NCBI GenBank assembly: GCA_947459215.1
Contig: CANHCQ010000008.1
Span: 62,001 to 126,000 of the forward strand
DNA length: 64,000 nucleotides
Source of the DNA: Phycisphaerales bacterium
Lineage (GTDB): Bacteria; Planctomycetota; Phycisphaerae; Phycisphaerales; UBA1924
Direction: 5' to 3'
This document shows, piece after piece, positions 6,422-63,710 of this stretch. The translations under genes were made by a program, and so were the position numbers. Each line of letters opens with the position of its first letter. Position 1 is the stretch's first letter. The notes beneath the pieces are model-generated. The model ran no database searches. It saw only the letters and a list, made by a program, of their open reading frames with translations, and had not been told where the DNA came from.

Positions 6422-7612
6422 TTATCGACCACGCGAAACCATCTCTTCCAGACTCGTCACCATCTTCGCACACGTCTCGCCCCACCGGAACCGCAGACAC
6501 CGCTCAAACCCGCGGCGGCGCAGCTCCTCCGCATACGCCGCGTCCGTCAATACCCGCCGCAGCGCTGCGATCAGCCCCGCCTCATCGTCCGGCTCGACGA
6601 ACGCCGCCGCCTCGCCCAGCACCTCCGGCATCGCGCAGCAGCGGCTCGACACCACCGGCGCACCAAAGCTCAGCGCCTCCAAGGGCGGAATCCCGAAGCT
6701 CTCGCACACGCTCATGAACGCGAAGCAGCGGGCATTCTTGAACGCCGCCTCGACGGCCTCGCCCGACAGTCGTCCTTCCACCTTCACCGCGTCAGGCGCA
6801 CCAGCGTCCCGCGCGATCTGCCGCAGCGATTCCGCGTACGACTCATCGAACACGCGCCCGACGATGCGATACGTCAGCGACTCCAGCCCCTTCTCACGCC
6901 GCAGCGCACAGACCGCCCGCGCCACCAGGTGCTGCCGCTTATGCGGCGTGACATCGCTCACCGTCAACACTTCCAGCGGCCGGGCCGTCAGCGCGGGCAT
7001 CGCCGCCGCGTCGCGCGTCGCCCACTCATCCGGCACCGCGTTGTAGAAGACCTCGGCGCGTTGAGGCGTCACCTTCTCCCAGCCCAAGATCAGATCGCGC
7101 AGATAGCCACTGGTGAAGCCGACGCATGTGGCGTGCTTCAGCGAATGCCGAATAGCGCGGCGGCGCATCGCGGCGCCGAGCCGTGCTCGCAGAGGCGCGG
7201 GCCCTGGAAGGCCCCGCCCCCACACTTCCGGCAAGTACGGCACCGGGTCCTGACAATGCGCGATCATCGGCACCTTGAGCCGCGGCGGCTTCTGGCCGTT
7301 GAGCTGCACCACCGCGCTCACGCGCTGCTCGCGGCACCAGTCCACCAGCGTGAAGTTCTCGAAGACGAGCCGCGAGCGCAACTGACCGGTGCCTTCCGGC
7401 GCCCAAAGGAACCTCACGTTGGCCGGGAATGTCTCCCGCAGCATCGGCTCGTGAAACGCGCTGCCCCCGGTCATCACCAGCGTGAACGTCCACGACGGCC
7501 GCAGCATCGCCAGCCCACGCAGCACCTCCCGCGCGACCGTGAACCCGCCGCCGCTGCTCACCGACAGCGCGTTGACCAGAATGTGCGGCGGATGATCGGG
7601 TCCCATCGTCAT
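6422..7612 (-). CDS. GT4-family glycosyltransferase
   Basis: 396-residue GT-B glycosyltransferase. The C-terminal half shows the family-4 signature: LTVSDVTPHKRQHLVARA at the start of the donor domain and CESFGIPPLEALSFGAPVVSS, in which the EX7E motif contacts the nucleotide sugar. The N-terminus begins ILVNALSVSSGGGF, a glycine-rich acceptor-domain loop. Start ATG at 7612 (a second ATG at 7606 is also possible); the long open frame upstream is only read-through of a repeat at 7636. It precedes an epimerase by 34 bp on the same strand, so both probably serve surface polysaccharide synthesis. Donor and acceptor unknown. Confidence 0.88.
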   Translation of the reverse strand: MTMGPDHPPHILVNALSVSSGGGFTVAREVLRGLAMLRPSWTFTLVMTGGSAFHEPMLRETFPANVRFLWAPEGTGQLRSRLVFENFTLVDWCREQRVSAVVQLNGQKPPRLKVPMIAHCQDPVPYLPEVWGRGLPGPAPLRARLGAAMRRRAIRHSLKHATCVGFTSGYLRDLILGWEKVTPQRAEVFYNAVPDEWATRDAAAMPALTARPLEVLTVSDVTPHKRQHLVARAVCALRREKGLESLTYRIVGRVFDESYAESLRQIARDAGAPDAVKVEGRLSGEAVEAAFKNARCFAFMSVCESFGIPPLEALSFGAPVVSSRCCAMPEVLGEAAAFVEPDDEAGLIAALRRVLTDAAYAEELRRRGFERCLRFRWGETCAKMVTSLEEMVSRGR

Positions 7613-7893: not shown

Positions 7894-9000
7894 ATGTCGA
7901 TTGCACGCAGTTCGATGAGTCTGCTCGCGCTGGCCGCGGCGTCGCACCTCGCCCTCGCCGGCCCCGGCGCGTCTTACGACGTCCGCCTCGCCATCCAGAG
8001 CCGCAACGCGGACCAGATCCAGTACCGCGGCGTGCCGCTCGTCAACGACATCTCCGGTGGCACCATCGGTCTGCATCCGCACGACGGGCCGCACCTGATC
8101 GCCGGGGATCCAACTTTCTACAGCCGCCACCAGGCCGAGCTGATCAAGGACATCAACGACACCATCGCCGACGTCAACTTCAGCGGCGTCATCTGCATCG
8201 ACCACGAGTCGTGGTGGCCGAGCTGGGAGTGGAGCAGCCACGTCCAGCCCGCCTGGACGAACTACATCAAGACCAAGCGCCCCGAACTCCTCGCCGGCAA
8301 GCCCGACACCGAGTGGGACGCCATCATCCAGGCCGAGTACAAGAAGACTGTCCGCCAGTACTACGAGTTCACCGCCAACATCGTCCGCCAGCAACGCCCC
8401 AAGGCCAAGCTCAGTTGGTACGGCATCCCCCTCCGCTCGTACTGGATCTTCAACGGCGTGCCGCAGTATGGCGTCGATCTCGCCCGCTACCGCGAGATCC
8501 ACGAGCAGGAGATGAAGTGGTACTTCGATCTCGTGGATGTGCTCTGCCCCTCCATCTATCCCGTCTACTCCGTCGCCTCACCCGCGGGACCCAGTCAGGT
8601 CGAACCCGCCGGCAACGAGGCGTACATCCTCGGCATGGTCGGCGAGTCCGTCCGCGTCAGCCGCGGCAAGCCCGTCTACCCGTTCTTCATGCTCAAGTAC
8701 CACCCATCCTCGGGCGCGTACGCGAACCAGTTCATCAACCCGATCAACCTGCGCCAGGCTCTTGAGATCCCGCGCCAGGTCGGTGCCGCCGGCCTCGCCA
8801 TCTGGGACTTCTTCTACGACGAGCAGGAACTCGCCGCCTGGCAGAACTACTACGACACCACCGCCCGCGACGTGATCTACGGCGTCATCTACCCAGGAAC
8901 CGGCTCGGCGCCCACCGCCCTCAGCGGCGCGCCCACCGAGCCCGAGCCCGGCGAAGACCAGTCCATCTCTCCCGACGGCCGCGTCGAGAAGAAGCCCTAA
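7894..9000 (+). CDS. Secreted GH56 (hyaluronidase)-like glycosidase
   Basis: 368 residues with a clear signal peptide (SLLALAAASHLALAGPG). The body reads like a TIM-barrel glycosidase of the GH56 hyaluronidase type: GVICIDHESWWPSW corresponds to the family's G-x-x-x-IDWExWRPxW block, whose D-x-E pair is catalytic and is kept here as D-H-E; LSWYGIPLRSYW matches the strand after it, VLCPSIYPVYS resembles the ALYPSIYL segment, and AGLAIWDFFYDEQE the final strand. The C-terminus is a low-complexity EPEPGEDQS tail. The ATG at 7894 is chosen for the signal peptide. Family placement is from motif memory and distant; the natural substrate is unknown. Confidence 0.55.
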   Translation: MSIARSSMSLLALAAASHLALAGPGASYDVRLAIQSRNADQIQYRGVPLVNDISGGTIGLHPHDGPHLIAGDPTFYSRHQAELIKDINDTIADVNFSGVICIDHESWWPSWEWSSHVQPAWTNYIKTKRPELLAGKPDTEWDAIIQAEYKKTVRQYYEFTANIVRQQRPKAKLSWYGIPLRSYWIFNGVPQYGVDLARYREIHEQEMKWYFDLVDVLCPSIYPVYSVASPAGPSQVEPAGNEAYILGMVGESVRVSRGKPVYPFFMLKYHPSSGAYANQFINPINLRQALEIPRQVGAAGLAIWDFFYDEQELAAWQNYYDTTARDVIYGVIYPGTGSAPTALSGAPTEPEPGEDQSISPDGRVEKKP

Positions 9001-12198: not shown

Positions 12199-14835
12199 AT
12201 GCAGACTCGTCGTGGCTGGGCTTCGGTCGTCACTCTCACCACACTCGCCGGCGCCGCCGTTGCGCTCTCCCAGTTCCAGTACCAGTGGGACCGGCCTCCG
12301 GCCGGTCTTGCTGCCGTGATGGGTGTCGCTGCCGACCGGCCAGAGGCCCTTCCCGCTGGCGCGAACCTCGCGAAACACAGCGCCCCGCTGCTTTCCTCCA
12401 CGCTGAAGGACAAGCTCGCCACGCTCGATGCCAACATTCGGCAGATGGTCGAACGCCGCCTCGCCCGCGAGTTCGCCAGCCCCAACACCGCCAAGCTCGC
12501 CGCCTGCTTCGGGCCCGGCACTCCCAACGAGGTGATGGAGTCCTTCCGCCTCGCCGAATCGATCGACAACCCCTTCAACGACCGCTTCAACGTCGGCCCC
12601 CGCTGGACCTCCACCGCCCTCTCGCCCGCCGGCTCGCCCCTCGGCAAGCCCATCACCATCACCTGGTCCATCGTCCCCGATGGCACCGACGTCGAGGGCT
12701 TCAATGGCGAGGCCGACTCCAACTCCAACCTCCGCGCCTACCTCGACGGCATCTACGGCAACCAAGCCACTTGGCTCCCCATCCTCCAGTCCGTCTTTGA
12801 TCGCTGGGAGCAGGTCAGTGGCATCGATTTCGTTTACGAACCCAACGACGACGGCGCCGCCCTCCGAAACCCCGAAGACCCGCTCAACCCCGGAACCTTC
12901 CTCCCCAGCACCGCCTTCGGCGTTGCCGGCGTCCGCGGCGACGTCCGCATCTCCGGTCACTTCATCGACGGCAACAGCGGCGTCCTCGCGTACAACTTTT
13001 ACCCCGACACCGACGACGCCCTCGGCGGCGACATGGTCATCGACACCGGCGACAACTTCTACACCAACACCGCCAACAACTCCCTCCGCCTCCGCAACGT
13101 CGTCTCCCACGAGCACGGCCACGGCATGGGCCAGCCTCACGTCTGCCCCATCGAAACCTCCAAACTCATGGAGCCCTTCGTCTCCACCGCCTACGACGGC
13201 CCGCGCCACGACGACATCCGCCACGCCCAGTTCTCCTACGGCGACATCTTCGAGCCCAACGATGACGAGTTCACCGCCACCCCGCTCGCCATCGGCGACT
13301 GCGGCACACTGATCGTCGGCACACTCCCGACGCCCGCCGGCCCGGTCGCCAGCGGTCTCGCACAACTCAACCTCAGCTCCACCGTCTCGCTCTCCGACGA
13401 GAACGACAACGACTACTACGCCATCACCGTTTCGCAGGCGACGCAGCTCACCGTCGTGATGCGCCCGCTCGGCCTCGAGTACGACGACTCCGATCAGGCC
13501 TGCTCCGGCAACTCCGGCTCGTGCTGCTCGGGCAACCCGCTCGACTCCCGCGCCGCCGTCGACGCCGTCATCCAGCTCTTTGACACCAACGGCTCGACCT
13601 CCCTCGCCCTCGCCGCCGCAGCCCCCGCCGGCGCGATCGAGACCCTCAACTTCACTCTCCCCGCCGCCGGCACCTACTACATCCAGATCAAGGACAACAG
13701 CGCCGCCGCCACCGCCCAGTTCTATGACCTGACCGTCACCACCGCGCCCGCCACGATTAATGTCGCCATTCTCGACGGCGCCGAACGCGACGTCCCCGCC
13801 GGCACCCTCGTCCCGCTGCGCTTCAACATCACCGGTGGCAGCGAGAGCTTTGATCTCGCCAACAGCCGCGTCTTCTACCGCGTCAACGCCGGCGCGACCC
13901 TCGAAGCACCGATCTACGACCACGGCGGCAACATCTACGCCTCCGCCCTCGCCGACATCCCCTGCAACGCCGTCGTCGAGTGGTACGCCGACCTCGCCAC
14001 CAGCGGCGCCAGCGTCCGCATCCCGTGCTCGGGCTTCACACAAACCCGCAGCGGCGTGACCACCGACATCTACTCCACCGATTTCACCACCAACGCCGCC
14101 GGATGGACCGTCGGCCCCAACACCGCCACCGCCGGCATCTGGGAACGCGTCTCGCCCATCGGCTCGGTCGCCCAGCCCGGCCGCGACCGCTCCGACACCG
14201 ACGACCAGTGCTTCATCACTGGCCAGGGCTTCTTCGGCAACAGCGGCGGCTCCACCGACGTGGACAACGGCTCGACCATCCTGGTCAGCCCCACCTTCAG
14301 CCTCGCCGGCCAGTCCGATGCGGAGATCTCCTACTGGCGCTGGTACTCGATCGGCACCGGCGCCTCGCCCTACGCCGACACCTTCGTCGTCCAGGTCTCC
14401 AACAACAACGGCTCCACCTGGACCACCGCCGAAACCGTCGGCCCCGGCAACATCAACACCCCCGAAGTCAACGGCCTGTGGTTCTTCAAGTCCTTCCGGC
14501 TCTCCTCCATCGGCGTCGCCCCCACCGCCAGCATGCGCGTCCGCTTCAACGCCCAGGACACCGGCAACGGCTCGGTCGTCGAGGCCGCTCTCGATGATGT
14601 CGCCGTCCAGGGCTTCTCGTGCGCCGTCACCGCCTGGTGCGCCGGCGACATGAACCTCGACGGGCAGGTCGACGACTCCGACTTCGTCCTCTTCGCCACC
14701 GCCTACAACGAACTCGACTGCGCCAGCCCCGCCATGCCCGCCGGCTGCCCCAGCGATCTCAACAACGACGGCTTCGTCGACGACAGCGACTTCGTGCTGT
14801 TCGCCGACGCGTACAACAACCTGCTCTGCCCATAA
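12199..14835 (+). CDS. Secreted matrixin-like (M10) metalloprotease with dockerin
   Basis: 878 residues; AGAAGGGA ribosome site before the ATG at 12199. Signal peptide (VVTLTTLAGAAVALS), then residues 29-54 that are encoded by a dispersed palindromic repeat, then a catalytic domain with HEHGHGMGQPH (about 304-314), the HExxHxxGxxH zinc motif of matrixin-like peptidases, and a possible Met-turn KLMEPFV. A pre-peptidase C-terminal-like domain, further beta domains and a GC-type dockerin (last 65 residues) follow. The 3' 103 bp are almost identical to those of the gene ending at 17191. Probably a large surface-attached protease; substrate unknown. Confidence 0.85.
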   Translation: MQTRRGWASVVTLTTLAGAAVALSQFQYQWDRPPAGLAAVMGVAADRPEALPAGANLAKHSAPLLSSTLKDKLATLDANIRQMVERRLAREFASPNTAKLAACFGPGTPNEVMESFRLAESIDNPFNDRFNVGPRWTSTALSPAGSPLGKPITITWSIVPDGTDVEGFNGEADSNSNLRAYLDGIYGNQATWLPILQSVFDRWEQVSGIDFVYEPNDDGAALRNPEDPLNPGTFLPSTAFGVAGVRGDVRISGHFIDGNSGVLAYNFYPDTDDALGGDMVIDTGDNFYTNTANNSLRLRNVVSHEHGHGMGQPHVCPIETSKLMEPFVSTAYDGPRHDDIRHAQFSYGDIFEPNDDEFTATPLAIGDCGTLIVGTLPTPAGPVASGLAQLNLSSTVSLSDENDNDYYAITVSQATQLTVVMRPLGLEYDDSDQACSGNSGSCCSGNPLDSRAAVDAVIQLFDTNGSTSLALAAAAPAGAIETLNFTLPAAGTYYIQIKDNSAAATAQFYDLTVTTAPATINVAILDGAERDVPAGTLVPLRFNITGGSESFDLANSRVFYRVNAGATLEAPIYDHGGNIYASALADIPCNAVVEWYADLATSGASVRIPCSGFTQTRSGVTTDIYSTDFTTNAAGWTVGPNTATAGIWERVSPIGSVAQPGRDRSDTDDQCFITGQGFFGNSGGSTDVDNGSTILVSPTFSLAGQSDAEISYWRWYSIGTGASPYADTFVVQVSNNNGSTWTTAETVGPGNINTPEVNGLWFFKSFRLSSIGVAPTASMRVRFNAQDTGNGSVVEAALDDVAVQGFSCAVTAWCAGDMNLDGQVDDSDFVLFATAYNELDCASPAMPAGCPSDLNNDGFVDDSDFVLFADAYNNLLCP
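12283..12360. repeat. GACCGGC-family inverted repeat pair inside a coding region
   Basis: CAGTGGGACCGGCCTCCGG with its completion CCGGTC (12283-12307) is followed, after a 26-bp spacer, by a degenerate inverted copy GACCGGCCAGAGGCCC (12334 onward). The same sequence recurs between genes at 27075, 27733, 35446, 61062 and 61138. Here it is translated as QWDRPPAGL and ADRPEALPAGA just after the signal peptide. Confidence 0.85.
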
Positions 14836-23465: not shown

Positions 23466-23488
23466 GGGAGAAGTGTCCGGGAAGGAAG

Positions 23489-23608
23489 GTGTCAAGGTGC
23501 CGAGGTGCCGAGGTGCCGAGGTGTCAAGTGGGAGGCTGGACGACCGTTGCTTGGTGTCTTTCCACTCGACACCTTGGCACCTCGGCACCTCCACACCTCG
23601 ACACCTGT
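23489..23608. repeat. GTGCCGAG/GTGTCGAG array, copy 1
   Basis: Runs of AGGTGCCG and AGGTGTCA on one side and the inverted CTCGGCACC, CTCGACACC on the other, with about 40 bp between. Similar blocks are at 24011 and 25732, all between capsid-cassette genes. Confidence 0.8.
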
Positions 23609-23992: not shown

Positions 23993-24010
23993 GGGTGCTC
24001 CGAAGAAGAG

Positions 24011-24116
24011 AGGTGCCAAGGTGTCGAGGTGTCTAGGTGGCGAGGGGAAGAGGACGGGCGTCGTTCGTGCGGTCTTGGCACTTGACACCTCGACACCTCG
24101 ACACCTTGACACCTCT
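24011..24116. repeat. GTGCCGAG/GTGTCGAG array, copy 2
   Basis: AGGTGCCAAGGTGTCGAGGT and following units on the left; CTTGACACC, TCGACACC units on the right, in inverted orientation. It touches the 3' end of the gene at 24115. Confidence 0.78.
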
Positions 24117-24553: not shown

Positions 24554-24979
24554 GGACCAAGGCATTTCACCGCGGAGGACGCAGAGGACGCGGAGAGAGG
24601 CATTGGGTTTGAGACAAGAACAGGATGCGGAGTCGCATCACCCAGTTCTTCCTGACTTCCTCCGCGCGCTCTGCGTCCTCCGCGGTGAGTGTCTTCTCAC
24701 AGACGCTCCAAGGCCACAACCGACGGACGGTGTACCGCGTCGGCAAGGCCGTCGCGATCGATCTTCGGACCAAGGCATTTCACCGCGGAGGACGCAGAGG
24801 ACGCGGAGAGAGGCATTGGGTTTGAGACAAGAACAGGATGCGTAGTCGCATCACCCAGTTCTTCCTGTCTTCCTCCGCGCTCTCTGCGTCCTCCGCGGTG
24901 AATGTCTTTTCAGACGCGCTCCAACACCACCACCGACGGCCTTCGCACTGCATCCGCCAGCCCATCACCGTCGAGATCG
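24554..24979. repeat. 213-bp tandem duplication: palindrome plus gene 3' end
   Basis: Two nearly identical units with a period of 213 bp (24554-24766 and 24767-24979). Each holds a long palindrome of the GGAGGACGCAGAGGACGC family and, on the minus strand, the last 22-23 codons of the connector-like gene: the functional end reads DGLADAVRRPSVVVLERV-stop and the duplicate reads DGLADAVHRPSVVALERL-stop. Confidence 0.85.
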
Positions 24980-25542: not shown

Positions 25543-25731
25543 GTGGATCCCCCAAAGGCAGTTGGAAGGGGCGAGGCGTGAGGGGCGAGAGGTGAACGGC
25601 TCACCCCTCATCCCACACCCCTTCCCGCTTCCTCCCCAATTCCGCGCCGGTCGTTTCCGAACCGGCGCGGACCCCGCCGCCCACCCTTACCTTCGCGCTC
25701 CGACCAGCGGCCGCGCGAGGAAGATTGGGAA

Positions 25732-25836
25732 AGGTGCCGAGGTGCCGAGGTGTCGAGGTGTCGAGTGGTGAGGTGTCGAGTGGTGAACGGGGCCGCGTGT
25801 GATTGGCACTCGACACCTCGGCACCTCGACACCTCC
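25732..25836. repeat. GTGCCGAG/GTGTCGAG array, copy 3
   Basis: About six units of AGGTGCCG or AGGTGTCG, then a short spacer and four inverted units. It fills much of the 305-bp gap between connector-like and capsid genes; the remainder (25543-25731) has one perfect hairpin, CCGCGCCGGT/ACCGGCGCGG, and no gene. Confidence 0.8.
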
Positions 25837-25847
25837 CCCCTTCCTCA

Positions 25848-27017
25848 TCACACCGCCAAGCCGCGCAGGACGCCGTGGGCGTTTTCGTTCTTGAACTCGA
25901 GCGTGTACTCGCCCAGCATCTGGCCCGCGGTCGCGTCGCCGGTGGCGGCCAGCGGCTTGAACGCGAAGCTGCGCCCCGCCAGCGGCATGACGCTGATGCG
26001 GGAGGAATCGAGCAGCAGCATCGAATCCGTGGGCACGGCGCGGCTGAGGATGACGCGGCAGACGCCGAAGTCGCTCTCATACACGCTCACCAGGTCGCGG
26101 TACTTGCTGTCCTCGGGCGTGTAGGCCCGCGACCCGGTGGCGAAGCCGTTGATGCGGCGCTTCTGCGCTCCGTTCACGACGATGGTGTCGATCTTGCCCT
26201 GGCTCTGCTCCCAGATGAGGCGCAGGGCGGCGTTGAGCACCGGCTCGCTCAGTTCGTTGTTGCCCGCGCCGCCGCCGGTGGGGATGCCGCCGGTGTTGGG
26301 CTGAAACTGGTTGGTGGCAATCTGCCGGATGATGCCGTTCATCGTGCGGCGGACGCCGGTCGCTCCTTGGGGCGACGCCGCAGCGGCGGTGCCGGCGATC
26401 ACGCAGCTCTCCAGGTCGCGGAGTAGTTCGCGCAGCCGCTCCTGCTTCTGGTACTCCACTTCATCACTCACCGCGTGCTGCCGCGCGGCCCGCATCGAGC
26501 CCGACACTTCCACCGTCGCCGAGAAGATCTGGGTGTAGTTCGCCTTGCGGACGCGGTTGGTGAACCGGGCGTTGACGGCATCCGCCCCTTCGAGCGCCGC
26601 GTTGCCGAGGATGAAAAGTCGGCGGCCGTTGGTGAGTGCGACTCTGGTCGTGCCGCCGTAGCCGCGGACGACGGTGAGCGTGTTGCCGCTGATGGCGGTG
26701 ATGAGCATCACCTCCGTGCTCGCGTCGGGGCGGACCTGATCGCCGATCTGGAAGCGTGTGCCGTTGGCGACCGTCAGACTCGTCGCGTTGGTCGCGTCGG
26801 GCGTGAACGTGGTCTGGTTCAGCGTGTCGGTGTTGGGCAGCAGTGTGTCCTCGATCCACTCGTGCACCGTGCTCATCGCCGGGCGCTTGGGATCGCCCAA
26901 GTAGTCCAAGAGCGGCGTCTCGAAGGGGCTCACGATGCCCACCAGGTCCGACACGTCTTCCATCAACTCCGGCAGATCCGCGCCCGCCGCGAACGTTGCT
27001 TTCCCCGAATACCCCAT
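25848..27017 (-). CDS. Phage major capsid protein (SU10 type)
   Basis: 389 residues; AAGGAG before the ATG at 27017. Features match the SU10 major-capsid/DUF5309 group of HK97-fold proteins: an N-terminal DVSDLVGIVSPFETPLLDYLG stretch in abbreviated form (DVSDLVGIVSPFETPLL), a beta insert with SLTVANGTRFQIGDQVRP, the long helix VEYQKQERLRELLRDLE, and a C-terminal AGQMLGEYTLEFKNENAHG. Length is normal for the family and there is no frameshift, so it could still form capsids. It follows the scaffold-like gene and precedes the connector-like gene, as in tailed-phage head modules. Confidence 0.85.
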   Translation of the reverse strand: MGYSGKATFAAGADLPELMEDVSDLVGIVSPFETPLLDYLGDPKRPAMSTVHEWIEDTLLPNTDTLNQTTFTPDATNATSLTVANGTRFQIGDQVRPDASTEVMLITAISGNTLTVVRGYGGTTRVALTNGRRLFILGNAALEGADAVNARFTNRVRKANYTQIFSATVEVSGSMRAARQHAVSDEVEYQKQERLRELLRDLESCVIAGTAAAASPQGATGVRRTMNGIIRQIATNQFQPNTGGIPTGGGAGNNELSEPVLNAALRLIWEQSQGKIDTIVVNGAQKRRINGFATGSRAYTPEDSKYRDLVSVYESDFGVCRVILSRAVPTDSMLLLDSSRISVMPLAGRSFAFKPLAATGDATAGQMLGEYTLEFKNENAHGVLRGLAV

Positions 27018-27074: not shown

Positions 27075-27177
27075 CAGTGGGACCGGCCTCCGGCCGGTCT
27101 TCACGCGTCCGACTCGTGGACCGGCTAGAAGCCGGTCCTACTGGGTCTTTTGGACCGGCTGGAAGCCGGTCCTACTG
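27075..27177. repeat. GACCGGC-family repeat cluster
   Basis: Three hairpins: CAGTGGGACCGGCCTCCGG... (27075-27099), GGACCGGCTAGAAGCCGGTCC (27117-27144) and GGACCGGCTGGAAGCCGGTCC (27151-27177), the outer pair oriented as inverted repeats. The last CAGTAG overlaps the end of the scaffold-like gene and supplies its final codon and stop. Confidence 0.88.
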
Positions 27178-31977: not shown

Positions 31978-33639
31978 TCAATGCCTCCGCACGGTCACGT
32001 ACATCCAGAACGTGTACCCCGCCAGCAGCAGCACACCACCCCAGAGGAGCCCCAGCCCCGGCCAGCCATGCGCGTGGGTGAGTTGCTGCCCGCCCGCGAT
32101 CGTGATGACACAGAGCAGCGCGGGGAAGAACGACCAGAGGTACACCGTCAGCGGCAGGCTCTTGCTGAACCGAAGCGCCGTCACCGCACCCGTGAGCAGC
32201 ATGACAAGGCAGCTCACCGAGAGCGCGACGCGATCGTTCTGCTTGCCCAGGATCTCGCGATCGAGGTCGGCGAGCTCACGCCGCAGCTCGCTGGTGATGA
32301 CCCTGATCGTGCTCGAGTCCTTCGTGGCGTCGCCTTCTCCCAGAAGCTCGATCGAGGTCATCTTGAGCAATCGCTCCGCCTGCGACTGCGGCGCTCGCAG
32401 CGAGCCAATGGTGAGGCGCTCACGCTTGGTGGTCTCGCCGCGGTCCGAACCCAGGGCGGCGCTGCCGGCCTCGCGGAGTTCCAACCGCAGCAGCATCCCG
32501 CCGCCGATTGTCGGGTCCTCGGAGAAATCCGGCGCCAGGATGACACTGCGTCCGGAATGCCGCACGCCTGCACCGGCATCGCTGCCGCGGAGCACGTCAA
32601 CGGTTGCGACTTCTCCCCGCGGCACAACCGTCCACGCCCGGCCGGGGCCGTTCTGCAGCGAGCGGCCACTGACCACCACCTGCCGCCCCGCGCTGTCGAG
32701 CAGCGTGAAGGATCCCGCCACCGACAACGCCCGCTGGAACTCCTCGACCGCTCGCTCGCGAGCAACTTCGGTGGCGAGCTGGCGACGACGCTGATCGATC
32801 CAGTTCATGCGCTCGGGCCGCTTGTGCAGCGCGCGCAGCTCGTCGGACCGCAGGAACTTCGGGTCGTCCGCCAGTGTTGCGGGGACAGTGAGCGACACCG
32901 GCAATGTCCGCCCGGTGACAAGTCCGGTCTTCGCGTCCTTGCTGACAAAGTCCTCGAAACGCATCGCCAGACGCGTCGTTGGTCCGCTGTCGCCCTGGCT
33001 TGGCTGCGGGAACAACCAGATCGTGGCGCGGCTTGCCGTGCCCTCGCTCACGACGTTTCCGCTCGGATCACGCTCCAACACCGCCGGCCGCGCCAGCACC
33101 ACCGCCGAGCTCGCACCACTGGCCGGATCAACCTCGATCCGCTGGGCTCGATCGGCAAAGACCAGGAACTTCTTCAGATCCACGCTCTGCCCGCGATTGA
33201 TGTTGGTCGCGAGGAGCTTGGCGATGTCCTCGGTGATCATCTGCCGCATCGTCTGCAGGAAGCGGGGAATGACCTGATCCGACAGCGCCGTCATGCCGAC
33301 GAACAGCACCAACCCGAGCGCCGCCGCGGGCAGAAGGAGCGACCGGTGCGACACACCGCCCGATGCCGCGGCCACGAACTCGTTGTCCGTGCTCAGCCGG
33401 TAATACACCAGCGAACTCGCAAAGCACCCCGCGAACGGCAGTGCATACGCCAACATCGGTGGAATCGACAGCAGTGTGTACTTGATCGCGTCCAGCGGCC
33501 CGAGCCTGCCGTCGGCCAACGGCTTGATGGTCGCCGCGAACGCGATGACGCTGACCAATACCGCCGCCGTGATCACCACCGTCCGGGTGAGCTCCCAGAA
33601 GATTGAGGTCCAGAGGGTGATGGGTTGGGGGCGGGCCAT
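31978..33639 (-). CDS. LptF/LptG-family lipopolysaccharide export permease
   Basis: 553 residues, well above the usual 350-400. N-terminal helices (WELTRTVVITAAVLVSVIAF, AIKYTLLSIPPMLAYALPFAG) include the LptFG signature region, and C-terminal helices (VALSVSCLVMLLTGAVTALRF onward) complete the six expected. The large middle part is periplasmic and beta-rich, longer than normal. LptF/G form the membrane channel of the LPS-extracting ABC transporter. The ATG at 33639 is chosen because upstream sequence is not membrane-like. gatB ends 38 bp upstream. Confidence 0.8.
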   Translation of the reverse strand: MARPQPITLWTSIFWELTRTVVITAAVLVSVIAFAATIKPLADGRLGPLDAIKYTLLSIPPMLAYALPFAGCFASSLVYYRLSTDNEFVAAASGGVSHRSLLLPAAALGLVLFVGMTALSDQVIPRFLQTMRQMITEDIAKLLATNINRGQSVDLKKFLVFADRAQRIEVDPASGASSAVVLARPAVLERDPSGNVVSEGTASRATIWLFPQPSQGDSGPTTRLAMRFEDFVSKDAKTGLVTGRTLPVSLTVPATLADDPKFLRSDELRALHKRPERMNWIDQRRRQLATEVARERAVEEFQRALSVAGSFTLLDSAGRQVVVSGRSLQNGPGRAWTVVPRGEVATVDVLRGSDAGAGVRHSGRSVILAPDFSEDPTIGGGMLLRLELREAGSAALGSDRGETTKRERLTIGSLRAPQSQAERLLKMTSIELLGEGDATKDSSTIRVITSELRRELADLDREILGKQNDRVALSVSCLVMLLTGAVTALRFSKSLPLTVYLWSFFPALLCVITIAGGQQLTHAHGWPGLGLLWGGVLLLAGYTFWMYVTVRRH

Positions 33640-33677
33640 GGGGAAGGGGTGAGGTGTGAGGTGTGAGGGGAGGGCAA

Positions 33678-35417
33678 TCAGCCGTTTGAGAGTTTGGCGA
33701 GCAAAGCGTCGCGGACGTTCTTCGCGTCGAGCGTGCCGCCGCTGAGTTTGACGACGGCGCCGACAAGGCGACCAACAGCCTGTACCTTCCCGGCCTTCAC
33801 GTCCGCCGCGGCTTGTGCGTTCTCGGCGATGGCCTGATCGACCCACTTCGCGAGAGCCGCGTCGTCACGGACAAGGAGTAGGCCGCGGGCCTTGGCGGTG
33901 GCCTCGGCGTGGGCGAGGGAAGAATTTACCACAGAGATCACAGAGGACACGGAGGAAGGCACTTGGGCTGCGTCGCCTCGACCATGCTTCTGCATCTCTT
34001 CTCTGTGGTCTCTGTGTTCTCCGTGGTGAATGCCTTCCTTCTTCTCTTCACACAGAGCCCCGAACAACTCATCCACCCCCTGGTTGCTCAGCTTGCCATC
34101 CTCGCGGAGCTTGCCGATCGCCGCCACCGACGCCGGCGTGATGCCCAGTTCGCTGATCAGCCGCTGCTGCTCGTTGGCACGCTTCGCACCCGATTGCAAG
34201 AGGATGTTCGCCGCGAGTTTGCCGGCCCGCGCGTTGCTCAGGCCCATCGCCTCCATCGCGGCGATCACGCCCTCGTAGAAGAAGCACACGTCGCGCTCCT
34301 CGACCAACGCCGCGGCTTCCTTCTTGCCCAGGCCGAACTCGTCCATGTAGCGCCGATACCGAGGCAGCGGCAGTTCCGGAATCGTCGCCGCGATCTGTGA
34401 CTTCCACGCTTCGTCCACCACGACCGGCACAAGATCCGGATCGGGGAAGTAGCGGTAATCGTGCGCGTCTTCCTTCTCGCGCTGCAGGAACGTTTCGCCC
34501 TTGCCGCCGCGCGCGTGGTCGTTCCAGCCCCGCGTCTGCTTCATGCCGCGGCCCATCTCGCGCTTGTCCGCCAACCACCGCAGCGGCTGCTGCTCCAGTT
34601 CAAACTCGATCGCCCCCTTCACCGCTTTGAAGCTGTTGAGGTTCTTCACCTCGACGATCGGTGTCTTGATCAGGTGGCCGTCTTTCAGCGTGATGTGGGT
34701 GTTGATGTTGGGCTCAAAGCGCATGTGCCCCTTCTGCATCACGCCCTCGGACACACCCAGGAATCGGCACACATTCCGCAGCACGCGGCAGAAGGCCACA
34801 CACTGGTCCGCGCTCGTGAAGTCCGGCTGGGTCACGATCTCCAGTAGCGGTGCGCCCGCACGGTTGTAGTCCGCGATCGAGAAATCGATCGCGCCACCAC
34901 CGGGGGCCTCGTGCAGCAGCTTGCCCGCGTCCTCTTCCAGGTGCGCCCGGATAATCCCGATCCGCGTCGGCTCGGCGTCGAGATCGAGCTGGCCCTGGAC
35001 ATCGAGCCCCGGCACATCGATGCTGCCGTCAAAGCACAGCGGCAGGTCGTACTGGCTGATCTGATACGCCTTGGGCAAGTCGGGATAGAAGTAGCTCTTG
35101 CGGTCCCACTTGGTGAGCGGCGCGATCTGGCACTGCAGCGCGAGCCCGACCTTGATCGCCATCTCGACCGCCGCCTTGTTCATGACGGGCAACGCCCCCG
35201 GCAGCGCGAGCACGGTGGGATCGATGAGCGTGTTGGGAAGCACGGCGGCACGGTGCGCCGCGTGCGAGCCGTGATCGGCCTCCGCATGCGGATCAAAGTC
35301 CGGATGTGCCGGATTCGGCGCCCGCGTGAACATCTTGGTCCGCGTCGCCAGTTCGACGTGCACCTCCATGCCGACGATGAGCTTCACCGATGCGATGTCC
35401 GACGCCGAGAGCGACAT
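33678..35417 (-). CDS. gatB: Asp/Glu-tRNA amidotransferase subunit B, with repeat insert
   Basis: 579 residues, about 90 longer than typical GatB. Recognised by VGMEVHVELATRTKMFT, PNTLIDPTVLALPGALPVMN, SYFYPDLPKAYQISQYD, RAHLEEDAGKLLHE, YNRAGAPLLEIVT and DAHDYRYFPDPDL. With GatA and GatC it amidates Glu-tRNA(Gln) or Asp-tRNA(Asn). A REP-like palindrome is read through at residues about 462-497, giving GIHHGEHRDHREEMQKH and VPSSVSSVISVVNSSLAHAE in the helical YqeY-like tail that contacts tRNA; both flanks are normal and the frame is intact. Another extra stretch (PHAEADHGSHAAHRA) is near residue 45. The partners gatC and gatA are at 61192 and 61798. Confidence 0.94.
   Translation of the reverse strand: MSLSASDIASVKLIVGMEVHVELATRTKMFTRAPNPAHPDFDPHAEADHGSHAAHRAAVLPNTLIDPTVLALPGALPVMNKAAVEMAIKVGLALQCQIAPLTKWDRKSYFYPDLPKAYQISQYDLPLCFDGSIDVPGLDVQGQLDLDAEPTRIGIIRAHLEEDAGKLLHEAPGGGAIDFSIADYNRAGAPLLEIVTQPDFTSADQCVAFCRVLRNVCRFLGVSEGVMQKGHMRFEPNINTHITLKDGHLIKTPIVEVKNLNSFKAVKGAIEFELEQQPLRWLADKREMGRGMKQTRGWNDHARGGKGETFLQREKEDAHDYRYFPDPDLVPVVVDEAWKSQIAATIPELPLPRYRRYMDEFGLGKKEAAALVEERDVCFFYEGVIAAMEAMGLSNARAGKLAANILLQSGAKRANEQQRLISELGITPASVAAIGKLREDGKLSNQGVDELFGALCEEKKEGIHHGEHRDHREEMQKHGRGDAAQVPSSVSSVISVVNSSLAHAEATAKARGLLLVRDDAALAKWVDQAIAENAQAAADVKAGKVQAVGRLVGAVVKLSGGTLDAKNVRDALLAKLSNG
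33926..34032. repeat. GAGGACACGGAGG-family palindrome inside gatB
   Basis: Arms TTACCACAGAGATCACAGAG and TCTCTGTGTTCTCCGTGGTG, about 30 bp each with a 45-bp spacer, are inverted copies of each other. They belong to the same family as 24554, 38621, 41817 and 63394. The length keeps the gatB frame open. Confidence 0.9.
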
Positions 35418-35445
35418 GCCGCATCGTAGTTCTGAGTGGGGGTCT

Positions 35446-35537
35446 CAGTAGGACCGGCCTCCGCCCGGTCATCACCAGTAGGACCGGCTTCCAGCCGGTC
35501 CACCCTTCCGAGCCGCGGGCTTCAGCCCGCAGCTCAG
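35446..35537. repeat. Repeat cluster upstream of gatB
   Basis: CAGTAGGACCGGCCTCCGCC... (35446-35470), CAGTAGGACCGGCTTCCAGC... (35475-35501) in direct orientation, and CCGCGGGCTTCAGCCCGC (35513-35530), the inverse of 23128-23149. It fills the gap between gatB and the gene at 35534, whose stop lies at its edge. Confidence 0.85.
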
Positions 35538-36286
35538 GAGTGCTCCGGCCGACCGCTCCGTCGTTCGTGCGCGATCGCCACGCCCCTTCCCCGTCCTTCG
35601 CGATCGATGTATCGAATCTCCCCTTCGAGCACCAACGCCCGCAGCGACTTGCGGATCGCAACCCGGGTTGCCGCGTTCAGCCTCGCCAGCGCCGACTCTG
35701 ATTCAACCTCGCCCTGTGTGTCGTGACGAAGCGTCTCGAGAATGCTGCACCGCAGGTCGCCGCGGCGGATGATCCGCCCACGCAGCGACGGATTCTGCTC
35801 CAGCAGCCACGACGCGGGTCGGATCGCATCCTTCTTGAGATCCGCCGCGGGAGCCCACACGCCCCATCGCTTCGACGCTACCGACGCGGCCTGCTCCGCC
35901 AGCGTCCGAAGTGCTGGATGATCCTGCGAGGTCACGAACAAGGGCCGGGGCGGCTGCGCCGGGCGACAGACATCGATGGCCAGCCGCAAGTCGGGCTGTG
36001 CTCCACGCTCGATCGCCTCCTCCAGGATCAGCCCAAGCGCCGGCTGGAATGCGGGTTCCAACTCGTCGATCACGAGCCGTCGGAGCCGGTGTTTCGCGAC
36101 AAAGCCGCTGTACTCAACGAGCCACGTGATCGCCAGCCCAAAGAGCCGCGCATGCGTCGACACCGCCCGAGCAGTGTGCAGCAGCACGCGCTCAATATCA
36201 ACCTCGCGATGCGCGGGTGCAACCGCCAGCAGCACACCGAGCTGCGCCCACTGGGCTTCGAGCGTTGGCCGCTTTGCACTCACCAC
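35534..36286 (-). CDS. Winged-helix partner of the nucleotidyltransferase gene
   Basis: 250 residues, start GTG at 36286 overlapping the upstream gene by 7 bp (stop TGA within GTGGTGAGTG), a translationally coupled arrangement. Mostly helical; the C-terminal third (RCSILETLRHDTQGEVESES, then AIRKSLRALVLEGEIRYIDR) looks like a winged helix. No named family was recognised. Its tight coupling to a nucleotidyltransferase-fold gene suggests the two act together, perhaps as toxin-antitoxin or another two-part regulatory system; that is inference. Confidence 0.6.
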   Translation of the reverse strand: MVSAKRPTLEAQWAQLGVLLAVAPAHREVDIERVLLHTARAVSTHARLFGLAITWLVEYSGFVAKHRLRRLVIDELEPAFQPALGLILEEAIERGAQPDLRLAIDVCRPAQPPRPLFVTSQDHPALRTLAEQAASVASKRWGVWAPAADLKKDAIRPASWLLEQNPSLRGRIIRRGDLRCSILETLRHDTQGEVESESALARLNAATRVAIRKSLRALVLEGEIRYIDREGRGRGVAIAHERRSGRPEHS

Positions 36287-38576: not shown

Positions 38577-38620
38577 GAGAGTGCTTTTCCAGAGGATTCA
38601 ACACGCGATCCGGGCTGGTG

Positions 38621-38777
38621 AAGGCATTTCACCGCGGAGCACGCGGAGAACGCGGAGAGGGGAAAATGGTTCAACACAAAGAGTCCGCCGTCGTGTGCTC
38701 TCTCTCCTTGCATCTGCCTTCATTCTCGATCTCTTGTCTTCCTCCGCGTCCTCGGCGTCCTCCGCGGTGAAACGCCT
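38621..38777. repeat. GGAGGACGC-family palindrome
   Basis: AAGGCATTTCACCGCGGAGC at the left and GTCCTCCGCGGTGAAACGCC at the right are long inverted arms, with about 85 bp between. It fills the gap between the sigma-like gene and mqnA; the remainder of 38577-38800 shows nothing else. Confidence 0.88.
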
Positions 38778-38800
38778 TTCCCTTCTGGGAACACGTCGAC

Positions 38801-41558: not shown

Positions 41559-41959
41559 GACTGGTTGAAGGGGTAGCAACGTGGCGGGACAGGTACGAAA
41601 GAAGCGTTCGCGTCGAGTTCTTTCTGGGAACGCCCGCCGCGTGGTTTCGCGGCGTGATTCTCGGCTTGGGGGACAAGAACCCGTCGACACTTGCGCCATC
41701 GGCCGATGTGGACGCGGCCTTCAGCCGATAATTGCCGGTTCGGGCGGTTGTTGCAGGCGTTGGTTCTAGGACGTTTGCGGCATCCCGCGGTGCAAACCGA
41801 ACCCCAACAGAAAAGTCAGTTCACCACGGAGATCACCGAGAACACAGAGAGAGACACGAGTGCCGAGCGTTGCGGATTGCTTGATTGTTCTTGTCGCCTC
41901 CGTGTTCTCCGTGATCTCTGTGGTGAACTGCCTTTCGGATCGAAAGGGCGACCGTTCCC
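41559..41959. repeat. Gap with GAGAACACAGAG-family palindrome (41817-41937)
   Basis: Arms TTCACCACGGAGATCACCGA and TCCGTGATCTCTGTGGTGAA close a palindrome of about 120 bp just upstream of pheA, within 23 bp of its start. The left part (41559-41816) shows small hairpins (CGCCGCG/CGCGGCG near 41637) and no gene. Confidence 0.82.
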
Positions 41960-58225: not shown

Positions 58226-59572
58226 TCAGGCCCGGACCAGACGCTCGCCCATCTCGCCCGCGTGCTTCTTCATCGCGTTGCGGGTGTCGACCACCAGCTT
58301 GCTGTGTTTGGCGACAGCGCCGTAGTCAAACGCGCTGTGGTTGGTCGAGATCAGCACGCAGTCGTACTTTGCCAGGTTCTCCGGCGTGAGGTCGACCGAG
58401 TGCATGTCGAGGTTGTACTTGCGGACGGGCTTGGTGTACTTGACGAAGGGGTCGCTGTAATCGACCTTGGCGCCCATGTCGAGCAGGAGCTCGATGAGCT
58501 CGTACGTCGGGCTCTCGCGGGTGTCGGCGATGTCGGGCTTGTACGCCAGACCCAGCACCAGCACCTTCGCGCCCTTGGTGGCCTTGCTGTGGTTGTTGAG
58601 AGCCGCGGCGACCTTGTGCACCACATAGTGGGGCATCGAGTTGTTCACTTCGCCGGCGATCTCGATGAACCGCGCCGGGACCTTGAACTCCTTGGCCTTC
58701 CACGTCAGATAGAACGGATCGATCGGGATGCAGTGCCCGCCCAGGCCGGGGCCGGGGTAGAAGGGCATGAAGCCGAAGGGCTTGGTGCTGGCGGCCTCGA
58801 TGACCTCCCAGACGTTGATGCCCATGGCGTCCATGATGGTCTTGAGCTCGTTCACCAGCGCGATGTTCACGCAGCGGAAGACGTTCTCAAACACCTTGCT
58901 CGCCTCGGCGACCTCGGCGGTGGTCACCGGCACTACCGTCTTGATCGGGCCGGTGTACAGCTTCGTGGCCAGTTCGCCGGAGACCTTGTCCAGGCCGCCG
59001 ACGAGCTTGGGGATGGTGGTCGTGTTGTGGCTCTTGCGGCCCGGGTCCTCGCGCTCGGGGCTGAAGGCGACGAAGACGTTGTCGCCCAGCTTGAGGTTCA
59101 CGCCCTTCTTGGCCGCGGCCTTGATCATCGCGGGGAACATGTCCTCGCGGGTCGTGCCCGGGTACGACGTCGACTCAAGGACCACAAGCTGGCCCTCGCG
59201 GCTGTTCTCGCCGATCATCACGCCGGTGTTGACGACGTACGACAGATCGGGCTCGCCGTGCTGACCCAGCGGCGTCGGGACGCAGACGATGATCGCGTCG
59301 GCCTTCTGCAGCGCCTTGGGGTCGGTGGTGGCGTCGAAACGCTTGCTGCCCACGAACGGCTTGCACATGTCGCTGCCCAGGTGGGGCAGGTAGTTCTCGC
59401 CCTTCTTCAGGAGCACCGGCTTCTCGGGGTCGATGTCGAACCCCAGAACCGGATAGCCGGCCTCGTGGAACGCGGCGAGAAGCGGAAGTCCGACATAGCC
59501 GAGGCCGATGATGGCGACGACGGCCTGCTTGGACTCGATCTTGTTGCGAAGCTGCTCGGCGTGCGTACCCAT
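58226..59572 (-). CDS. UDP-N-acetylhexosamine/UDP-sugar 6-dehydrogenase
   Basis: 448 residues, ATG at 59572. N-terminal NAD-binding AIIGLGYVGLPLLAAFHEAG, VPTPLG, and the central helical EVAEASKVFENVFRCVNIAL; the catalytic cysteine is in GPGLGGHCIPIDPFYL and the C-terminal domain has YKPDIADTRESP. Closest in look to WbpA/TviB-type UDP-GlcNAc(A) dehydrogenases. Two four-electron oxidations make the uronic acid for capsule or O-antigen. Divergent from the glycosyltransferase gene at 59777; the 204-bp gap has a CCCCTTCCA/TGGAAGGGG hairpin (59681-59702). Confidence 0.9.
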   Translation of the reverse strand: MGTHAEQLRNKIESKQAVVAIIGLGYVGLPLLAAFHEAGYPVLGFDIDPEKPVLLKKGENYLPHLGSDMCKPFVGSKRFDATTDPKALQKADAIIVCVPTPLGQHGEPDLSYVVNTGVMIGENSREGQLVVLESTSYPGTTREDMFPAMIKAAAKKGVNLKLGDNVFVAFSPEREDPGRKSHNTTTIPKLVGGLDKVSGELATKLYTGPIKTVVPVTTAEVAEASKVFENVFRCVNIALVNELKTIMDAMGINVWEVIEAASTKPFGFMPFYPGPGLGGHCIPIDPFYLTWKAKEFKVPARFIEIAGEVNNSMPHYVVHKVAAALNNHSKATKGAKVLVLGLAYKPDIADTRESPTYELIELLLDMGAKVDYSDPFVKYTKPVRKYNLDMHSVDLTPENLAKYDCVLISTNHSAFDYGAVAKHSKLVVDTRNAMKKHAGEMGERLVRA

Positions 59573-61032: not shown

Positions 61033-61165
61033 GGGGCCTTCTAGGCCCCGGCGCCACCACCCAGTAGGACCGGCTTCCAGCCGGTCCAGCATCTGACCCC
61101 GGAGAAAGCAAGCGGCACAGAAGTCCACGCCTCCGTCGACCGGCCGGAGGCCGGTCCCACTGGTG
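61033..61165. repeat. Hairpin and inverted GACCGGC pair
   Basis: GGGGCCTTCTAGGCCCC (61034-61050) hairpin, then CAGTAGGACCGGCTTCCAGC... (61062-61087) and, after about 50 bp, the inverted GACCGGCCGGAGGCCGG... CCCACTGG (61138-61163). It resembles the pairs at 12283 and 27075. Confidence 0.85.
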
Positions 61166-63276: not shown

Positions 63277-63393
63277 TTCAAGCAAAGGGTCGCGCGAGCA
63301 CTTTGCTCGGCCGATGACGATCAATCAGCGAGCCGGAGCGTCCTCGCCCCGGCGCTGTCGCTGTCGATCGGGCGCGATGCTCCGAGAAGCGGC

Positions 63394-63607
63394 AAGGCAT
63401 TTCACCGCGGAGGACGCAGAGAACGCAGAGGAAGGCGATCTACCACCAAGAGCACAGAGAAATGGCGCTTCGAAGCAGCATCGCCTTCACCCAGCATTTC
63501 GTCGGGCGTCTTCACTCCGTGTTCTCCGTGTTCTCCGTGATCTCCGTGGTAAATCTCTTCAGGATTCGCTCCGCGTTCTCCGCGTCCTCCGCGGTGAAAT
63601 GCCTTTC
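63394..63607. repeat. Nested GGAGGACGC-family palindrome
   Basis: An outer pair (TTCACCGCGGAGGACGCAGA and GCGTCCTCCGCGGTGAAATG) encloses an inner, diverged pair (AAGAGCACAGAG and CTCCGTGATCTCCGTGGTAA), so one copy seems inserted in another. The remainder of 63277-63710 holds no gene. Confidence 0.88.
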
Positions 63608-63710
63608 CAACGAGACCGTCGAAATGGATGCGCTCGCAACCGCACCAGGGCGAGGACACCCCGGCTCGCTGATGCAGCGGTGGTGTGAGGGGTTCGAGTG
63701 CCACCAAAAA

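Follow-up and report, generated by a model that had tools for sequence, protein, structure and literature searches.

Translated palindromic repeats are so far known mainly from Rickettsia and from the REPs of the GTAG/CGTC class. The Rickettsia palindromic elements (RPEs) are described, in excerpts of two reports, as dispersed stem-loops of ~105-150 bp which are found between genes and also in frame within conserved genes, and the one protein tested tolerated its element (PMC2229807, PMC10969869). The same excerpts count RPEs in 19 reading frames (PMC2229807), while an extract of a third paper says that RPE arms lose identity over time (PMC6649704). Intragenic GTAG/CGTC REPs belong to multi-copy repeats that, in an extract of their description, are mostly intergenic with some copies in ORFs (PMC3733652). 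Coding inverted repeats are also present in nematomorph mitochondrial genes, where they have been gained or lost between species and where, in the extract concerned, arm conversion is proposed (PMC6649704).

The palindrome in the gatB gene of a Phycisphaerales genome, which is the subject of this analysis, resembles the RPEs in that it lies in frame within a conserved gene, where the fold can accommodate extra residues. It differs from them in that it belongs to another phylum, and RPEs occupy many genes whereas here a single such gene turned up among the 41 paired copies tested. Unlike RPE arms, which according to that extract lose their identity, the gatB linker also appears to have been overwritten by new palindromes. 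The likeness is one of description, and no RPE membership is claimed. GTAG/CGTC REPs have a GTAG or CGTC end and a length of 20-40 bp, and the gatB family has neither feature. The nematomorph palindromes, as far as the extract describes them, have perfect arms that code for conserved residues, in contrast to the imperfect arms, added linker and dispersed family seen here. RPEs and intragenic GTAG/CGTC REPs are the same kind of event as the gatB palindrome; what is new is this repeat family, together with a coding site that successive palindromes have apparently rewritten. A single site in a translation gene offers, across eight species, an insert that is kept, decayed, halved, absent or apparently overwritten. 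The linker allows testing whether repeat copies overwrite each other, and how a protein bears a changing foreign sequence.

The window is the whole stretch of DNA analysed, 64,000 nucleotides long, and the genome it comes from (3.66 Mb, 47 contigs) is referred to as G000; its seven congeners are G001 to G007, which gives eight species of one genus, G001 being the closest species to G000. The gene, its palindrome and the parts of the palindrome are located in the window as follows:

33678-35417, minus strand: gatB, Asp-tRNA(Asn)/Glu-tRNA(Gln) amidotransferase subunit B, 579 aa (ORF, Pfam, NCBIfam)
33690-33917, minus strand: YqeY-type tail, residues about 501-576, intact and downstream of the insert (Pfam PF02637 positions 73-148; 2df4_B resumes at 401)
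33916-34039, no strand: palindromic element in gatB (inverted-repeat arms, and family copies in the window and genome)
33916-33954, plus strand: 3' arm in coding orientation, read as ...SSVSSVISVVNSS
33955-34000, no strand: loop between the arms (by eye, no confident alignment to the G001 loop)
34001-34039, minus strand: 5' arm in coding orientation, read as IHHGEHRDHRE

The product of the ORF matches Pfam GatB_N and GatB_Yqey as well as NCBIfam TIGR00133 and PRK05477; the catalytic domain and the YqeY-type tail that define a GatB protein are therefore both present. The initial annotation of this DNA had reported an inverted repeat inside gatB that keeps the frame and adds about 36 residues, and this description holds: the arms are 77% complementary over 39 nt (94% in a 16-nt core), the 579 codons run across the palindrome with no interruption, and the core at 33925-34032 corresponds, in frame, to GatB residues about 462-498 (~37 residues). 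An Rfam scan of 33500-35600 returned three matches, all far under their gathering scores.

The GatB tail domain contacts tRNA. The insert had been placed within this helical tail, in a loop that tolerates it; the loop agrees with the predictions, and the position is moved to the linker between the domains, away from the tail helices. The alignment to Staphylococcus aureus GatB (2df4_B) stops at query residue 456 (=394) and resumes at query residue 505 (=401), and where the palindrome sits here the Staphylococcus protein joins its helical domain to the YqeY tail by six residues. Among 98 distinct GatB sequences the linker, as delimited for the survey of these proteins, most frequently has a length of 17 residues; that of G000 has 59. 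The AlphaFold model of the G000 protein has a mean pLDDT of 84.1, falling below 50 at residues 466-485, between helices 445-460 and 490-510, with values of 90 and 91 in the ten-residue blocks on either side; pLDDT is below 50 also at 47-57, 169-178 and 317-325, some of which are conserved, so a low score is not special to the insert. A short helix (469-477) is drawn inside the insert at low confidence. Based on the jump in the alignment and on the model, the insert is assigned to the hinge that precedes the tail domain, where it is predicted to form a disordered linker outside the tail helices.

The palindrome belongs to a dispersed family. In the window, the arm pattern (at most 2 mismatches) has 9 matches, 4 of them in gatB, against 0.03 expected. 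In the whole G000 genome there are 53+60 = 113 arm matches (at most 1 mismatch; reversed pattern 0+0), 13 of which fall outside the stretches examined, and G001 contains 71 exact arm matches (reversed-pattern control 0). Family members begin with inverted ends near AAGGCATTTCACC, followed by 9-nt units of the form CRCGGAGNN, a loop, and the same inverted. There are two arm types, CGC and CAC, and a simple copy mostly has a single type throughout its units and in both of its arms. Composite copies also exist; the complete ones among those listed have CGC arms outside and CAC arms inside. The following copies of the window belong to the same family as the gatB palindrome, in agreement with the initial annotation, which had linked it to repeats lying between genes:

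24567-24902, no strand: two adjacent family copies, CGC-type arms
38603-38796, no strand: family copy outside genes, CGC-type arms, with an orthologous copy in G001
41812-41935, no strand: family copy, CAC-type arms, no frame with coding signal on its two flanks, with an orthologous copy in G001
63391-63608, no strand: composite copy, CGC-type outer and CAC-type inner arms

Composite elements with CGC arms outside and CAC arms inside were noted at 63403-63596 of the window and at C2:10593-10838 and C9:120796-121024 of G000. A related type with 8-nt units is present in all eight genomes of the genus (at most 1 mismatch) and outnumbers the exact 9-nt type in G004 to G007, which holds also for exact matches only, among the matches listed. 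Within the window, a second palindrome family with 8-nt units (AGGTGTCG/AGGTGCCG) forms clusters at 23487-23606, 24009-24116 and 25709-25857.

Concerning the class of the family, the label REP that it had been given does not apply in the strict sense: the ends lie near AAGGCATTTCACC / GGTGAAATGCCTT, with neither GTAG nor CGTC, and the elements measure 83-333 nt arm to arm, not 20-40 nt. A MITE-like description fits better, as the 41 paired copies in the G000 stretches share their inverted ends and are short, multi-copy, bounded by terminal inverted repeats and transposase-less. A search of G000 for Y1 transposases, the REP-associated type, gave three matches, with no family arms within the ~1.5 kb scanned on each side of each:

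C1:259819-260163: Y1 transposase match (locus L174)
C1:65497-65832: Y1 transposase match (locus L175)
C6:160978-161154: Y1 transposase match (locus L176)

GTAG-like matches occur in loci L175 and L176. A pair of GTAG-type REP-like repeats, of a family separate from that of the gatB palindrome, is also found at 35448-35491, just upstream of gatB; the GTAG-type repeats (GTAGGACCGGCTTC, at most 2 mismatches) have 11 matches in the window, the others being at 12285, 27077-27175, 27735, 49053, 59410 and 61064-61160.

Across 28 orthologous G000/G001 sites one has no element in G001 (L042:3410), with 1133 other bases there instead; the G001 stretches were taken around that genome's own arm matches, so empty sites are mostly out of view. 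For the same reason these stretches could hardly show an empty/filled pair within a species, and none was found; the gatB of G004 has no element, but its sequence has diverged. No target-site duplication was established for the family elements. Family arms match in 95 of 294 sampled Planctomycetota genomes, many of them with one or two matches only, compared with 10 of 294 for the reversed-pattern control (row count). Searches of the open-access literature with DNA words of the family returned unrelated matches only, and GatB was absent from the ten best of 99 matches of a search on GatB and REP.

We also asked how many copies lie in coding sequence. Codon usage was tested in the 150 or 201 nt flanking the paired copies (lone-arm clusters, 10 in G000 and 7 in G001, lie outside the totals), which gave an in-frame coding signal on both flanks in 1/41 copies of G000 and 1/34 of G001, and in both genomes this copy is the one in gatB. 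By comparison, an open frame of any kind crosses the element at 150-nt flanks in 9/41 and 9/34. The test flags 0.63 or 0.58 of random in-gene positions; therefore some coding copies could have been missed, and the case for gatB standing out as the coding copy is strong but not absolute. With 240-nt flanks gatB itself was missed in both genomes, because the flank runs beyond its stop. Two other positions flagged at that flank length were set aside: at 58904 of the window a lone arm-like match with no partner arm lies inside a gene and was taken as chance, and at L157:4176 of G001 the opposite strand has the stronger coding signal. Long ORFs spanning other elements were likewise rejected: in those with a Pfam domain (G6PD, Exo_endo_phos, Amidohydro_1 and Aminotran_1_2), the element precedes the domain. 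Of 20 element-spanning ORFs searched against Pfam, 16 had no match at all.

The state of the linker was then compared among relatives. A GatB match is present in 49 of 61 genomes, and loci were taken from 30; the nearest named relatives (80 of 443 related loci were taken in) are MAGs labelled Phycisphaerales, Phycisphaeraceae or Planctomycetota. Alignment A1 contains 40 of the 44 sequences first listed (left out: L096, with a stop codon, L100, L101 and L121), and the GatB tree was built without the linker from 23 of the 98 GatB rows. The tree pairs G000 with G001 and G006 with G007, and, within their half of the genus, separates G003 and G004 from the clade formed by the remaining four. The initial annotation treats the repeat as an insert of this gene, which is not supported in that form: most of the genus carries it, and it has apparently been replaced at least twice. 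The linkers of G000, G002 and G006 contain a CAC-type palindrome. That of G001 is a CGC-type palindrome (CGC in 6/6 units, vs CAC in 6/6 in G000), and that of G007 is an 8-nt-period palindrome (63 such matches in its genome), its sister G006 having 9-nt-period arms; given the pairs in the tree, sister species therefore carry differing palindromes. In G005 the left arm is followed by a decayed right arm with which pairing is lost, and this gatB arm is the sole exact 9-nt-period match in its genome. Only a right-arm remnant is found in G003, and no palindrome in G004. We also looked for relatives carrying the same residues without a palindrome; G002 and G006 share both the residues and the palindrome.

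Multi-copy repeats are easily misassembled and the relatives named above are MAGs, which could suggest an assembly or binning artefact. Complete palindromes are found at the same linker in the separate assemblies of G001, G002, G006 and G007, that of G002 inside a contig of 3,786,672 bases, so an assembly accident is unlikely; we put the chance of an artefact of either kind at practically nil.

The reading we prefer, with a probability of roughly 0.7, is a single old, inherited insertion in the gatB linker, which was later kept, decayed, halved, removed or overwritten. A non-autonomous dispersed palindrome would have inserted into the short linker that connects the helical domain to the YqeY tail, in the ancestor of this Phycisphaerales genus. 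It would be read as a disordered linker and tolerated because the arms are poor in stop codons (on average 2.2 of 6 frames are stop-free in G000 elements, vs 0.76 in shuffles) and the length preserves the frame; GatB presumably still works with the insert, which is probably translated. The palindrome would then have been kept in G000, G002 and G006, decayed in G005, halved in G003 and removed in G004, and overwritten by a different palindrome in G001 (CGC-type arms) and G007 (8-nt-period arms), possibly via ectopic conversion or re-insertion by other copies.

A common ancestral insertion is not needed if the linker is a hot spot at which each lineage received its own palindrome, an explanation that we consider unlikely. 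It would account for the different palindromes of sister species, and fresh insertions would also be expected to have near-consensus arms. In G016, of another genus, the same linker holds an unrelated dispersed palindrome (45 matches with at most 3 mismatches; control 5), and G019 has there a further palindrome, of weak family status (26 vs 12 in the control); a precedent is given by the different REPs described, in an extract of PMC3733652, near one recB site in two Xanthomonas species. Against it, G000, G006 and G002 have an identical distance of 75 nt between arm starts and an identical frame, and 32/41 loop bases agree between G006 and G002, with a partial match in G005; together this points to a single insertion for these species. 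Since G003 and G004 do not group with the other four species of their half of the genus, independent insertions may have occurred. Of the 98 GatB sequences, 7 have a linker palindrome that passes the threshold (stem score 10, at most 1/100 codon shuffles), and L122 is just under it (score 9, 0/100). By eye, the Ser/Pro-rich gatB linker of a more distant relative (L086) resembles a lone right arm of the family.

Returning to the single old insertion, its replacement by other palindromes appears to have occurred in at least two species. The search for a near-identical donor of the G007 insert gave none among the 40 of 75 candidates scored (best long match 77%), and that for the G001 insert none among the 40 of 104 scored (best long match 74%). 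The peptide changes along with the DNA. The first arm encodes IHHGEHRDHRE in G000, MHHGEHREHGE in G002 and IHHGEHREHGE in G006; in G001 it reads VHRGERGERGER, with a single histidine left, and in G007 HHRDTETQR. The similar His-rich first arms of G000, G002 and G006 could suggest that the peptide (His/Glu-rich, then Ser/Val-rich) was recruited for a function, e.g. metal or RNA binding. This is extremely unlikely in view of the lone histidine of G001, the other pattern of G007 and codon positions that show no amino-acid constraint. In the G000/G006 comparison, 3, 3 and 3 of the 22 arm codons differ at positions 1, 2 and 3; the values are 3, 2 and 3 of 22 for G000/G002, and 0, 1 and 2 of 22 for G006/G002. 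Between G000 and G006, arm positions 1 and 2 differ as often as position 3: it is the DNA that is conserved, not the peptide. Third positions in the rest of gatB differ at 250/510 (against 3/22 in the arms, p 0.0009), 242/510 (p 0.0017) and 192/510 (p 0.006), respectively, in three comparisons that share sequences, and so are dependent, with arms picked after inspection.

The same tendency is seen across the family: in 23 of 24 orthologous G000/G001 pairs, gatB among them, the arms show greater likeness than the remainder of the element, although the arms were defined from the G000 fold and also anchor the alignment, so that their identity may be overstated. These 24 pairs come from the 28 orthologous sites and have paired arms in both genomes; L039, L041 and L051, where at least one genome has an arm on one side only, were left out together with L042:3410, and 23 of the 51 G000 clusters have no orthologous stretch in the sample. 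Arm conservation therefore seems to be a property of the family. It could come from copy renewal, from fresh insertion or from a constraint on the DNA, whereas peptide selection would not explain it. Tentatively, the linker may stay palindromic while its sequence and peptide change because dispersed copies renew or replace the palindrome through ectopic conversion, the arm DNA being conserved at all codon positions without protein selection.

The reduced third-position differences in the arms, and the fact that differing sequences at the linker still pair, would also be expected if a hairpin in the gatB mRNA or DNA were selected, for instance to pace translation ahead of the tail, and this kept the arms alike. 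We give this a slim chance, as G004 has no palindrome, G003 one arm and G005 arms that no longer pair, and the family-wide likeness of arms is not particular to gatB. In addition, over the 24 pairs, 124 single changes leave a base unpaired, compared with 36 base pairs in which both partners have changed and pairing persists; compensatory evolution as a rule was rejected on these counts, and 24 of the 36 compensated base pairs sit in four switched sites.

Besides gatB, both arms switch type at three others of the 24 pairs: L031 (which keeps one odd unit), L058:8202 and L060:11966. Such a switch could also arise if a composite copy lost one of its layers. At L058 two neighbouring elements differ in this respect between G000 and G001: the one at 6610-6728 (C25:44609-44727) is nearly unchanged, and the one at 8202-8330 (C25:46201-46329) has switched type.
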